A DNA stretch of 64,000 nucleotides from Streptomyces sp. HUAS ZL42 (lineage in GTDB: Bacteria > Actinomycetota > Actinomycetes > Streptomycetales > Streptomycetaceae): assembly GCF_040782645.1 (NCBI RefSeq), contig NZ_CP160403.1, forward strand, positions 7,413,001-7,477,000. The letters are read 5' to 3'. Each line of letters begins with the position of its first letter. Within the stretch, counting starts at the first letter, position 1. Below the pieces are notes generated by a model that searched no databases, was not told the DNA's origin, and saw only the letters and a program-made list of their open reading frames with translations. The position numbers and the translations under genes were made by a program. Below are positions 1,521 to 4,724 of the stretch, piece by piece.

Positions 1521-3500
1521 ATGACGGCCGAGCTGGTGCGGGGGCAGAACCACCCGCTCTCCCAGGCCCGCCTCGAGATCCGGGTCTCGGCCGGCAAGCC
1601 GATCGTGGCCGGAGCCACGATCGGGGACGAGCACGGCAAGGTCCACGGCGTCGAATGGGTCGCCCATCCCGGTGCTCCCACCCTGCCGGGGCTCGAGGTC
1701 TCCCGGCAGGCGGCCGCCGACCACCGCCTCGCGGTGGACCTGGACGCCATGCCGGAGTCCGTGCACCGTGTCAGTGTGCTGCTCGCCCTGCCCTCCGGTG
1801 TCGGAGGTCCGGCGAGTTTCGGCGCCGTCGCGGCCCCCTTCGTCGCCGTCACCGGCCTCGACGGCACCGAGGTCGCCAGCTACACCATCACCGGTCTGGC
1901 GGCGGAGTCCGCGGTCGTCGCCCTGGAGCTCTACCGCCGGCAGGGCGCGTGGAAGGTGCGCGCCGTCGGCCAGGGCTACGCGGGCGGACTCGGCGAACTC
2001 CTCGCCGACCAGGGCCTGTCCGAGGCCCACCAGCTCGCAGGCACCATCAACGCGGCGGTGGCCCAGGGGCTGGCCCGCTCGGTACCGGCACCCCCGCCGC
2101 GCACGGCGGACGGCGACCGCTCCCGGCAGACGGCCGCCCCGGCACTCGGCCCCGACCAGGGCGGTTCCCCCTACGGCGCGCAGACCCACGGAGTGCCGGG
2201 TACCGCTGCGGGCTGTCCGGCGGACCCGACGCCGACGGCCGCTTCCTCCGCCGCCCAGCCGTCCGCGCCCACCGCCGGCGGCCCCGTCAACTACAGCCAC
2301 CCGCGCCGTCAGAACGCGGCACCTCCGCCGCCCCCGCCGACCGCGCCCCCGGCCCCGCCCGGGCAGCCCGCGCGGCCCGTCGCGGGTGACGCGACCGGCT
2401 GGTCCATGGAGGAGCGGCTCTACAACCAGGTGTGGGGCATGTTCGAGGACCTGGCCCGTACCACTGCCGCGTACCGCAGTGCCGTCGACTTCGCCGACTC
2501 GCGCATGGAGAAGGAACTCGATCAGGTCCTGTCGGACCCGCGCAGCCGGATCGGCGGACAGGGCGACGCCGCCCGCGAGGCGGCCCGCGCCAAGCATTCC
2601 CAGCTCGTCGACCAGGCGCGGCAGGCTCTCGACCGGGACCTCGCCCAGCTCGGGGCCGAGGCCGAAGTCGTCGAGCCCGCCCTTCCGCCGGCGTACGCCC
2701 GCTGGGACAACCCCGTCTGGCACGGCTATCGCGTGCCCATGGAGATGCCCATGGCCCTGCGCCTCGGCGACCTCCATCTCTCCGAGGCCGCGCAGCTGCG
2801 CATACCGATGCTGGTCCGGCTGCCGCTGGAGCGCGGCCTGTGGATCGACAGCGGGCGCGCCGGATCGCTGGACGGCTCGTTCGCCGACTCCCACGACCTG
2901 CGCCGCCTGGCGATGGAGACGGCCGTGGCGCACGCGGCCCGGCTGCTGGCCGTCCACCCGGCGGGCGAGTTCACCGTGCACGTCATCGACCCGGCCGGCT
3001 CGGGAGCGCAGTCGCTCGTCCCGCTGGTGCAGACCGGCGTGCTCGCGGCGCCACCGGCGGTCGGCGCCGCCGGAGTGGCGGACGTACTGACCCGGCTCAC
3101 CCAGCGGGTCGACCTGGTGCAGATGGCGGTGCGCGGCGGTGCGGCCGATTCCCTCCCGCCGGACCTGGACACGGCCCAGCAGCTGCTCGTCGTCAACGAC
3201 TTCCCGCACGGCTTCGACGACCGTGCCGTGACCCAGCTTCGCTATCTCGCGGACGAGGGCCCGGCCGTGGGCGTCCACCTCATGATGGTCGCCGACCGCG
3301 AGGACGCCGCCGGTTACGGTCCGTTGCTGGACCCGCTGTGGCGTTCGCTGCTGAGGCTGACCCCGGTGCCCGACGACCACCTCGCGGATCCGTGGGTCGG
3401 GCACGCCTGGACGTACGAACCTTCGCTCGTGCCGCCCGGCAGCCAGGTGCTCCAGCACGTGCTGGAGCAGGTCGCCGCCGCTCGTACCAAGTACACGTAA
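1521..3500 (+). CDS. TerD-like domain fused to a degenerate FtsK/HerA-like domain
   Basis: A 659-residue multidomain protein. Residues 1-175 resemble TerD (ending WKVRAVGQGYAGGLGELL). Residues about 190-300 are a Pro/Ala-rich linker. A charged helical segment follows (about 300-385). The rest looks like the core of an FtsK/SpoIIIE-type ATPase: residues near 440 take the place of the P-loop strand (GLWIDSGRAGSLDG) without any GxxxxGK[ST], while LLVVNDFP near 555 resembles a Walker B strand and GVHLMMVADRED resembles the strand after it. It follows the terD gene by 53 bp with an AAAGGCG ribosome site. It is probably a non-ATPase scaffold of Ter-type stress systems; the function is inference. 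Confidence 0.7.
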   Translation: MTAELVRGQNHPLSQARLEIRVSAGKPIVAGATIGDEHGKVHGVEWVAHPGAPTLPGLEVSRQAAADHRLAVDLDAMPESVHRVSVLLALPSGVGGPASFGAVAAPFVAVTGLDGTEVASYTITGLAAESAVVALELYRRQGAWKVRAVGQGYAGGLGELLADQGLSEAHQLAGTINAAVAQGLARSVPAPPPRTADGDRSRQTAAPALGPDQGGSPYGAQTHGVPGTAAGCPADPTPTAASSAAQPSAPTAGGPVNYSHPRRQNAAPPPPPPTAPPAPPGQPARPVAGDATGWSMEERLYNQVWGMFEDLARTTAAYRSAVDFADSRMEKELDQVLSDPRSRIGGQGDAAREAARAKHSQLVDQARQALDRDLAQLGAEAEVVEPALPPAYARWDNPVWHGYRVPMEMPMALRLGDLHLSEAAQLRIPMLVRLPLERGLWIDSGRAGSLDGSFADSHDLRRLAMETAVAHAARLLAVHPAGEFTVHVIDPAGSGAQSLVPLVQTGVLAAPPAVGAAGVADVLTRLTQRVDLVQMAVRGGAADSLPPDLDTAQQLLVVNDFPHGFDDRAVTQLRYLADEGPAVGVHLMMVADREDAAGYGPLLDPLWRSLLRLTPVPDDHLADPWVGHAWTYEPSLVPPGSQVLQHVLEQVAAARTKYT

Positions 3501-3542
3501 AGGCGCCTGACCAGGGGATTTGGTCTTTCTTTTGCCAATCGC

Positions 3543-3572
3543 TTTACCTTTCCTTGGTGATTGGGGTACTGT
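3543..3572 (+). promoter_or_regulatory. Possible promoter of the terC riboswitch transcript
   Basis: TTTACC (3543-3548) and TACTGT (3567-3572) are separated by 18 bp. They would start RNA around 3579, right at the first base of the riboswitch P1 helix. Both hexamers match the sigma-70-like consensus only loosely, so the support is mainly position. Confidence 0.3.
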
Positions 3573-3580
3573 TTTCCGCA

Positions 3581-3676
3581 CGGAGGGGAGTACTCCCTGT
3601 GCTGCGGCGTACCCGTCAATACGGATCCGGCAGGATCCCGGGGCGTCGGCCCATCCCCGGGTGGAAGAGACCTCCG
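3581..3676 (+). ncRNA. yybP-ykoY family (Mn2+) riboswitch aptamer
   Basis: The two conserved loop sequences of this family are visible. GGGGAGTA at 3585-3592 follows the P1 5' strand CGGAGG (3581-3586). GAGACC at 3667-3672 leads into the P1 3' strand CCTCCG (3671-3676), which pairs with it over 6 bp. The other conserved loop is CGTCAATACG at 3614-3623, followed by GC-rich arms. The class binds Mn2+ and commonly controls TerC/Alx-type or MntP-type manganese exporters. Here it sits directly before terC. Confidence 0.85.
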
Positions 3677-3721
3677 GCAGCGCGACGACGCTGATTACCT
3701 GCCGTTACGTATTGCCGGAGG
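3671..3721 (+). promoter_or_regulatory. Riboswitch expression platform that hides the terC ribosome binding site
   Basis: CCTCCGGCA (3671-3679) is exactly complementary to TGCCGGAGG (3713-3721), giving a 9-bp helix. The right arm holds the Shine-Dalgarno GGAGG (3717-3721), four bases before the terC ATG at 3726. The left arm is the same CCTCCG that forms aptamer helix P1. The two pairings exclude each other: ligand-stabilised P1 would free the ribosome site (ON), while ligand-free RNA would hide it (OFF). This is translational control read from the sequence. Confidence 0.75.
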
Positions 3722-3725
3722 CGCA

Positions 3726-4724
3726 ATGGATGTTTCCGTGACCCTGTGGGTCCTGACCATCGTGGGCCTTGCAGCCCTGATCGCGGTCGACTTCTTCATC
3801 GGCCGCAAGCCGCACGACGTGTCGATCAAGGAAGCGGGGATCTGGACGGTCGTCTGGATCGCCCTGGCCGGGCTCTTCGGCCTCGGCCTGCTCGTCTTCG
3901 GCGGGGGGCAACCCGCCGGCGAGTTCTTCGCGGGCTTCATCACCGAGAAGTCGCTGAGCGTCGACAACCTCTTCGTCTTCGTCCTGATCATGGCGAAGTT
4001 CGCCGTGCCCTCGCAGTACCAGCAGCGCGTGCTGCTCGTCGGCGTGCTCATAGCCCTCGTCCTGCGAGCCGTCTTCATCGCCGCGGGCGCCGCGATCATC
4101 GCCAGCTTCTCCTGGGTGTTCTACCTCTTCGGAGCCTTCCTGATCTGGACCGCCTGGAAGCTCATCCAGGAGGCCCGGGCCGATGAGGAGGACGAGGAGT
4201 ACGAGGAGAACAAGCTGCTCAAGGCCGCCGAGCGCCGCTTCGGTGTGGCCGACCGCTACCACGGCACCAAGCTGTGGATCCAGCAGAACGGCAAGCGGGT
4301 CATGACGCCGATGCTGGTCGTGATGCTCGCGATCGGTACGACCGACGTGCTGTTCGCGCTCGACTCGATCCCAGCGATCTTCGGTCTGACCCAGGACCCG
4401 TACATCGTCTTCACGGCCAACGCCTTCGCGCTGATGGGCCTGAGGCAGCTGTACTTCCTCATCGGCGGCCTGCTGAGGAAGCTCGTCCACCTGAGCTACG
4501 GCCTGTCGATCATTCTGGGCTTCATCGGCGTCAAGCTGGTGCTGCACGCCCTGCACGAGTCCGGGGTGCACGTTCCCGAGATCAGCATCCCGGTGTCTCT
4601 CGGCGTCATCTGCTCGGTCCTGATCGTCACCACGATCACCAGCCTGCGGGCGTCCCGGAAGCAGTCGGTCGAGGCGGCGCGGGGCGAGAGCGAAGGCGCT
4701 CCGAAGGACAGCGTCGAAGCCTGA
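3726..4724 (+). CDS. TerC/Alx-family membrane protein, probable Mn2+ exporter
   Basis: A 332-residue integral membrane protein of the TerC family (tellurite resistance TerC, E. coli Alx), with about eight or nine hydrophobic segments. Family signatures include AVDFFIGRKPH, ITEKSLSVDNLFVFVLIM (with the conserved Asp) and GTTDVLFALDSIPAIFGLT. A charged cytoplasmic loop, rich in Glu/Asp around residue 160, lies mid-protein. The ATG at 3726 was chosen because GGAGG precedes it by four bases and it is the output of the riboswitch. Alx-type proteins export manganese; that role here is supported by the Mn2+ riboswitch. Confidence 0.9.
   Translation: MDVSVTLWVLTIVGLAALIAVDFFIGRKPHDVSIKEAGIWTVVWIALAGLFGLGLLVFGGGQPAGEFFAGFITEKSLSVDNLFVFVLIMAKFAVPSQYQQRVLLVGVLIALVLRAVFIAAGAAIIASFSWVFYLFGAFLIWTAWKLIQEARADEEDEEYEENKLLKAAERRFGVADRYHGTKLWIQQNGKRVMTPMLVVMLAIGTTDVLFALDSIPAIFGLTQDPYIVFTANAFALMGLRQLYFLIGGLLRKLVHLSYGLSIILGFIGVKLVLHALHESGVHVPEISIPVSLGVICSVLIVTTITSLRASRKQSVEAARGESEGAPKDSVEA

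Follow-up and report, generated by a model that had tools for sequence, protein, structure and literature searches.

The terC leader of a Streptomyces as a probable alx-type Mn2+ riboswitch, with switch strands that change together across Actinomycetes

In the 64,000-nucleotide stretch of Streptomyces sp. HUAS ZL42 DNA analysed here (the window), the leader of terC is very probably a Mn2+ (yybP-ykoY) riboswitch of the alx type, which lacks helix P2 and probably works as a translational ON switch. The two-state switch read from this leader gains comparative support of an unusual kind, namely three strands that change together, in 11 to 12 families. The novelty lies neither in the ligand class nor in the mechanism but in an unusually clean comparative test of the switch, and Streptomyces, without an Rfam match in the genomes searched, gains a readable candidate Mn2+ sensor on terC.

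Already known are the riboswitch class, the ON direction in which it acts, and its association with terC/alx genes, including terC of C. glutamicum (PMC3890552). The C. glutamicum gene (cg2157) is, like ours, a terC of an actinobacterium; RF00080 is predicted in its leader and RNA-seq showed a 5′ UTR, and it differs in that the passage describing it in PMC3890552 contains no switch. Among the matches listed from the open-licence PMC literature, no paper dealt with the Streptomyces terC leader or with a P2-less branch. A sentence in PMC8164766 credits RNA-seq in Corynebacterium and Streptomyces with a part in the discovery of yybP-ykoY riboswitches, which makes an earlier sighting in Streptomyces possible; the main text of PMC3766115, in the part consulted, names neither Streptomyces nor TerC.

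The terC gene (3726..4724; all features of the window given here lie on the forward strand) encodes a TerC/Alx family metal homeostasis membrane protein of 332 aa (Pfam PF03741, 1.5e-53; TIGR03718, 386 bits against a cut-off of 246), and two genes with TerD domains, as assigned by Pfam, lie upstream of its leader. A hairpin with a T-rich tail at 3509..3525, which resembles an intrinsic terminator, probably ends the upstream TerD-domain gene and gives terC its own transcript; the pattern scan that found it counted 1 such site against 0.4 (sd 0.6) in shuffles, a difference that is weak when taken alone. Further downstream, a candidate promoter is formed by TTTACC (3543-3548), an 18-nt spacer and TACTGT (3567-3572). 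This block is largely conserved in 79 Streptomyces leaders and is visible also in two aptamer-less leaders (L259 and L260), and a strict sigma-70 consensus scan returned no promoter in 3450-3800. The sequence suggests that 3543-3572 is the terC promoter and that the RNA starts near 3579-3580, just before the aptamer.

The aptamer opens with the 5′ strand of the switch helix P1.1, CGGAGG at 3581-3586, which can form a 6-bp closing helix with CCTCCG at 3671-3676 and covaries with that 3′ strand across the class. It is followed by the 5′ side of L1 (GGAGUAC, 3587-3593), of which GGAGUA is invariant in an alignment of 53 leaders (A1, described below), and by the 5′ strand of P1.2 (UCC, 3594-3596), whose partner is 3663-3665 and which has two-sided changes in 3/3 pairs. 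At the place of P2 there is only a linker (3597-3604), not long enough to hold a stable hairpin of its own as judged by the spacing in the aptamer set. The P3 arm (3605-3648), supported by covariation, pairs 3605-3609 with 3644-3648, 3612-3615 with 3639-3642 and 3623-3627 with 3634-3638, and it carries the 7-nt bulge L3 (UCAAUAC, 3616-3622), with GUCA as in U39-C40-A41 of L. lactis. Next come the P4 hairpin GCCC/GGGU (3649-3662; two-sided changes in 5/5 modelled pairs, the fifth being A-C in the window), and then the 3′ strand of P1.2 (GGA) together with the 3′ side of L1 (AGAGA) at 3663-3670, which were placed by sequence, covariation and the aptamer-set survey.

Two helices compete for what follows. 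Positions 3671-3679 (CCTCCGGCA) and 3713-3721 (TGCCGGAGG) are exact reverse complements over 9 bp, and the latter stretch contains the Shine-Dalgarno GGAGG (3717-3721), which is followed by 4 nt and then by the terC ATG at 3726. Since 3671-3676 are common to both helices, the helices are mutually exclusive. In the shared switch strand CCUCCGGCA (3671-3679), the first 6 nt would enter P1.1 in the ON state and all 9 nt would pair with the Shine-Dalgarno region in the OFF state, which makes UGCCGGAGG (3713-3721) the strand to be sequestered; three-way covariation supports both. One strand is thus common to the ligand-stabilised helix and the anti-Shine-Dalgarno helix, as in a translational ON riboswitch. 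The original prediction had placed the P1 strands, the 9-bp alternative and the terC Shine-Dalgarno at these positions, and all of its coordinates and complementarities proved correct on a check of the sequence.

The original prediction had also proposed a search of the leader with the yybP-ykoY model of Rfam, and had named the lack of a significant covariance-model match as grounds against itself. With Rfam, such a lack is literally what was found. Rfam 15 gave 0 matches at gathering score in the window, and RF00080 (gathering score 45 bits) was absent from the leader at E<=10 and gave 0 matches in the whole 9.87-Mb genome. Some weak matches to other models (IMPDH, COG2908, ftsZ-DE and others) lay far under their own cut-offs and were taken as chance. 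In the phylum, RF00080 appeared in 17/198 genomes at E<=1, in 1/198 over its cut-off and in 0/8 of the genus; on 14 control genomes it was over the cut-off in 2/14 and gave matches at E<=10 in 9/14. Because the model is this insensitive in both sets, its silence says little about the leader. The structure line of RF00080 in Rfam 15 shows no P1 closing helix, and the model may need to be split or rebuilt.

We therefore turn to a model built from the leaders themselves. The starting material was 80 named terC loci, 79 titled Streptomyces and one titled ‘Actinobacteria bacterium’. The motif GGAGGGGAGTA is present in the leaders of 78 of them; one of the other two has one G fewer (L046) and the last is without the aptamer (L048), and both stayed outside the first motif set. 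Alignment A1 holds 52 of the remaining 78 loci plus the window, while alignment A2 and the covariance model R1 were made from 34 of the 78 plus the window. R1 comprises P1.1, P1.2, P3 with its 7-nt bulge (L3) and P4, and the Shine-Dalgarno part was left out. Run on A1, RNAalifold replaced P1.1 by the Shine-Dalgarno helix plus a GGAG/CUCC hairpin, a structure that we did not adopt; the strands hardly vary within Streptomyces, which accounts for this outcome, and the comparison was moved to the whole class.

Searched over 34 kb, R1 scored 35.3 bits (E 7e-6) on the leader of E. coli alx, on the correct strand, and 78 nt separate the end of the match from the alx start. In a background of 623 kb, made up almost wholly of Streptomyces DNA, the best match outside terC leaders reached 19.4 bits. 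As a model built on Streptomyces matches alx, the missing RF00080 match would be due to the Rfam model. Among the seven actinobacterial loci best matched by RF00080, R1 scored 26.1 bits on L083, 24.4 on L089, 19.1 on L087 and 16.7 on L084, the last two within background, and it gave no match to L085, L086 and L088. The alx leader shares with the window its position before an alx/TerC gene, L1 GGGGAGUA, a short L3 (CGUCAUUAC) and GAGACC; it differs in being AT-richer, in its long P4 arm and in the distance of its start codon, 78 nt past the matched part.

The residues typical of the family are present in the window: L1 GGGGAGUA at 3585-3592, GAGACC opposite it at 3667-3672, and GUCA of L3 at 3615-3618. 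In L. lactis the Mn2+ site consists of G9, U39, C40, A41, U44 and C45, and P1.1 is formed by A3-G7 with C96-C102 (PMC9190785); in the X. oryzae aptamer P3.1 is the docking site for A10 of L1, and P1.1 is stabilised by Mn2+ binding (PMC6754395). Matched by hand, position by position, A3618 of the window corresponds to the Mn2+-contacting A41 and A3589 to the docking A10. The L. lactis and X. oryzae aptamers (PDB 4Y1I, 6N2V) have the P1.1 switch helix, L1 and L3 in common with the window, as well as, in L. lactis, the A after UC in the metal site. They differ in their P1-P4 four-way junction and in acting by transcriptional antitermination, whereas the element in the window is P2-less and its switch strand covers the Shine-Dalgarno.

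These comparisons also bear on the ligand. The direction of the response, ON with Mn2+, is carried over from mntP and alx of E. coli (PMC9603457) and from the mechanism of the family (PMC6754395). The same aptamer and wiring could nevertheless serve a main cell signal other than Mn2+ alone, with alkaline pH or another divalent metal acting too, since reporters of both alx and mntP respond to Mn2+ and to alkaline pH (PMC9603457), and it is alx, not mntP, that R1 matches. This we consider unlikely, as the Mn2+-site residues are conserved and the genes downstream belong to metal-exporter families (TerC/Alx, and once GDT1).

The distribution and structure of the aptamer were followed through the class. 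At E<=1, R1 matched 230/394 genomes of the class (Actinomycetes) and 80/137 genera; it matched 36/40 genus genomes, as counted by hand, and 79/121 family genomes at E<=0.1. A first-round class set of 60 loci was fetched from R1 matches, so that 60 of the 61 R1 matches in it are there by construction. Among these 61 matches, two-sided changes were found in 23/28 pairs and in each of seven helices. In their alignment 96.8% of cells are paired, and the covariation score is 0.566 against <=0.117 with the partners slid, a comparison flattered by the fact that the alignment was fitted to the model. On the level of the sequences, two-sided changes such as U-A to C-G, found in 26 sequences in P1.2, cannot arise from such fitting. 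Downstream of model-derived aptamers, a TerC-like ORF was present in 147/156. Assignment to the Mn2+ riboswitch family, as first proposed, is thus upheld by the alx cross-match, the L1 and L3 residues, the covariation in seven helices and the TerC/Alx gene, and the RF00080 match failed to appear.

A larger aptamer set was collected by a script that required GGAGTA and one of five L3 words; 235/237 loci passed all its requirements and gave 237 aptamers, or 234 after removal of duplicates. The script left out L048, L081-L099, L198 and L199, and missed L166 and L211, which have no CCU after AGA. Two entries, L183 on the minus and L200 on the plus strand, look spurious or cut, and they were kept, where they count against us. 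The L3 pattern GUCA-NN-AC was present in 227/234 aptamers; 5 were unmatched by the pattern and 2 were of another form.

Within Streptomyces the switch strands hardly vary, and their pairing there alone proves little. Across the class we asked in how many of the 234 unique aptamers a start codon lies 3-14 nt beyond a 7-nt complement of the P1 3′ strand. R1 was built without the Shine-Dalgarno strand, so this test is independent of how the class-wide loci were found. The 3′ strand is CCTCCGG in 192/234 aptamers, and 173 of these 192 carry its complement before the start codon. The other 42 aptamers have different 3′ strands. In 23 of them the complement matches the strand that the aptamer itself carries, whereas 27 of 9,646 pairings of a strand with leaders of a different strand gave such a match; permutation among the 42, repeated 2,000 times, yielded 3.6 matches on average and never more than 12. 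When the start codon had to lie in the TerC frame, the consensus count stayed at 173/192, and 21/33 non-consensus TerC-linked aptamers kept the complement against 13/7,270 foreign pairings, a recount that dropped L194, whose GTG is not the start of the GDT1 gene, and the non-TerC L165. The consensus complement stands in only 1 of the 33. The 23 fitting non-consensus strands represent 9 different 7-mers in 12 families, and the 21 fall in 11 of those families, by family labels copied by hand; matched changes include CCTTCGG/CCGAAGG, CCTCGAA/TTCGAGG and CCTTGTG/CACAAGG.

The 5′ strand of P1.1 tends to change as well. At P1.1 position 4 the triple G-C-G becomes A-T-A in 11 aptamers, and at position 5 G-C-G becomes C-G-C in 8, in a table where the Shine-Dalgarno partner was conditioned on and the 5′ partner was not. 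Without any conditioning, of 62 changed 3′-strand positions in P1.1, 42 pair with the 5′ strand of the aptamer itself, while a consensus 5′ strand would pair with 22. Against the switch stand the 20 of 62 changed positions that are unpaired, and the lack of the complement before the TerC start in 12/33 non-consensus and 19/192 consensus TerC-linked aptamers. The two-state wiring put forward in the original prediction is supported by three-way covariation, and the compensatory changes that it had proposed to look for in related genomes exist class-wide for the 7-nt complement. As a point of interest about a Streptomyces terC leader, the wiring is present and yet not special, being found in much of the class.

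In the scheme that we propose, Mn2+ would be the ligand and would turn the switch on, control would be translational, and the choice between the two states would fall as transcription proceeds rather than at equilibrium. The RNA would start directly before the aptamer. With Mn2+ bound, L1 and L3 would dock and P1.1 would close (3581-3586 with 3671-3676), leaving the Shine-Dalgarno at 3717-3721 free, and TerC/Alx, a probable Mn2+ exporter, would be translated and would export Mn2+; in E. coli, Alx carries the annotation of a Mn2+ exporter. In the absence of Mn2+, the 3′ strand would leave P1.1, and 3671-3679 would pair with 3713-3721, blocking initiation. ViennaRNA energies, which include neither metal nor tertiary contacts, were -77.6 kcal/mol for the minimum, -75.6 for OFF and -58.9 for ON. 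The minimum-energy fold is without the aptamer, which single-sequence folding did not recover, and such folding was therefore not used as support. As the energies favour OFF, Mn2+ alone could hardly tip the equilibrium, and if they are roughly right, the choice would have to fall during transcription; P1.1 is complete 36 nt before the strand 3713-3721 begins to appear.

Control might instead be mainly transcriptional, through Rho or pausing, with the Shine-Dalgarno helix secondary, given that the X. oryzae (PMC6754395) and L. lactis (PMC11087558) members act by antitermination and that some aptamers here are without a Shine-Dalgarno complement. A pattern scan of 3450-3800, however, found no intrinsic-terminator-like site between the aptamer and terC, and the complement coevolves at 3-14 nt before the TerC start, which makes mainly transcriptional control quite improbable. 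That the CGGAGG/CCTCCG words reflect mere Shine-Dalgarno-like composition of a GC-rich leader with no switch at all would agree with strands so nearly invariant within Streptomyces as to be no proof alone and with energies that do not favour the aptamer, and can be dismissed in view of the three-way covariation with its swap controls, the class-wide helix covariation and the alx cross-match.

A translational Mn2+ switch being preferred, its junction remains to be described. Crystal structures of the family are four-way junctions (PMC6754395); of the helices P1-P4, covariation supports P1, P3 and P4, and there is little room for P2. The distance from GGAGUA to the L3 motif is <=23 nt in 223/234 aptamers, and about 13 nt of these are taken by P1.2 and P3 in the window. 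When isolated, this stretch folds below -1 kcal/mol in 133/234 aptamers; the weak hairpins were rejected as P2, the printed examples using mostly letters of P1.2 or P3, as judged by eye. By our own reading of the sequences, likewise by eye, alx has no P2 hairpin between P1.2 and P3. E. coli mntP belongs to the same family, and its translation initiation is turned on by Mn2+ (PMC9603457); it differs from the window in having, again by eye, a P2 hairpin and a longer L3 (UCAACAUAC), and R1 gave no match to it. For this reason the element in the window is called alx-type, and since P2 is apparently absent from a known member, P2 seems dispensable for membership. Three loci of the Streptomycetaceae (L247, L248 and L249) have real P2 hairpins, so that near relatives differ in having or lacking P2.

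Some terC leaders have lost the sensor. Those of L048 (2880-3015) and L259 keep the promoter-like block and the Shine-Dalgarno and have neither the aptamer nor the CCTCCGG strand. The leader of L260 (G630:C1, upstream of 969102) keeps P1.1 and the full anti-Shine-Dalgarno strand, whereas L1 and L3 are gone; P1 in this leader has 8 bp (CGGAGGAA/UUCCUCCG) and stands over a short insert. In folding, its first 60 nt form P1, whereas the 144-nt leader forms the anti-Shine-Dalgarno helix instead, and formation of P1 ahead of that helix might lock the leader ON, a suggestion weakened by the fold of the whole leader. These three leaders are an anecdote and not a statistic, and they offer ready controls. 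In the four Streptomyces genomes without an R1 match, a terC relative was found in 4/4, in one case at just 41% identity and in another with a match that spans a TGA, and R1 run on these terC loci gave no match.

Taking junction and losses together, we lean slightly towards a Mn2+ riboswitch branch in much of the Actinomycetes that is missed by the current Rfam model, with a P2-less three-way junction, one strand shared by P1.1 and the anti-Shine-Dalgarno helix, and three coevolving strands; its sensor-less leaders would either be without the anti-Shine-Dalgarno strand (L048, L259) or keep it under an 8-bp P1 (L260), perhaps locked ON. If this branch is real, L1-L3 docking and Mn2+ sensing would be independent of the four-way junction, and a simple three-helix version of the aptamer would be on offer for structural work.

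A few aptamers stand before other genes. L194 (G214:C1:1093466-1093578) shares its genome with another aptamer, L193; it has a longer L3 (GUCGACAUAC) and lies before a gene for a GDT1 divalent cation/proton antiporter (PF01169). At L165:201-301 there is a coherent three-strand switch (ACAAGG / CCUUGU / ACAAGG) before a gene for a PGPGW small membrane protein (PF09656). In L141, L200, L202, L204 and L212, all of family f85, R1 aptamers precede a gene that is not TerC-like and encodes about 200 aa or more, being cut by the end of the stretch. Its product had no Pfam match in the two tested and carries a RAAIARYDYL motif in the three printed in full. The f85 aptamers are without the usual anti-Shine-Dalgarno complement; these loci may use another expression platform, and their gene is a possible further member of the regulon.
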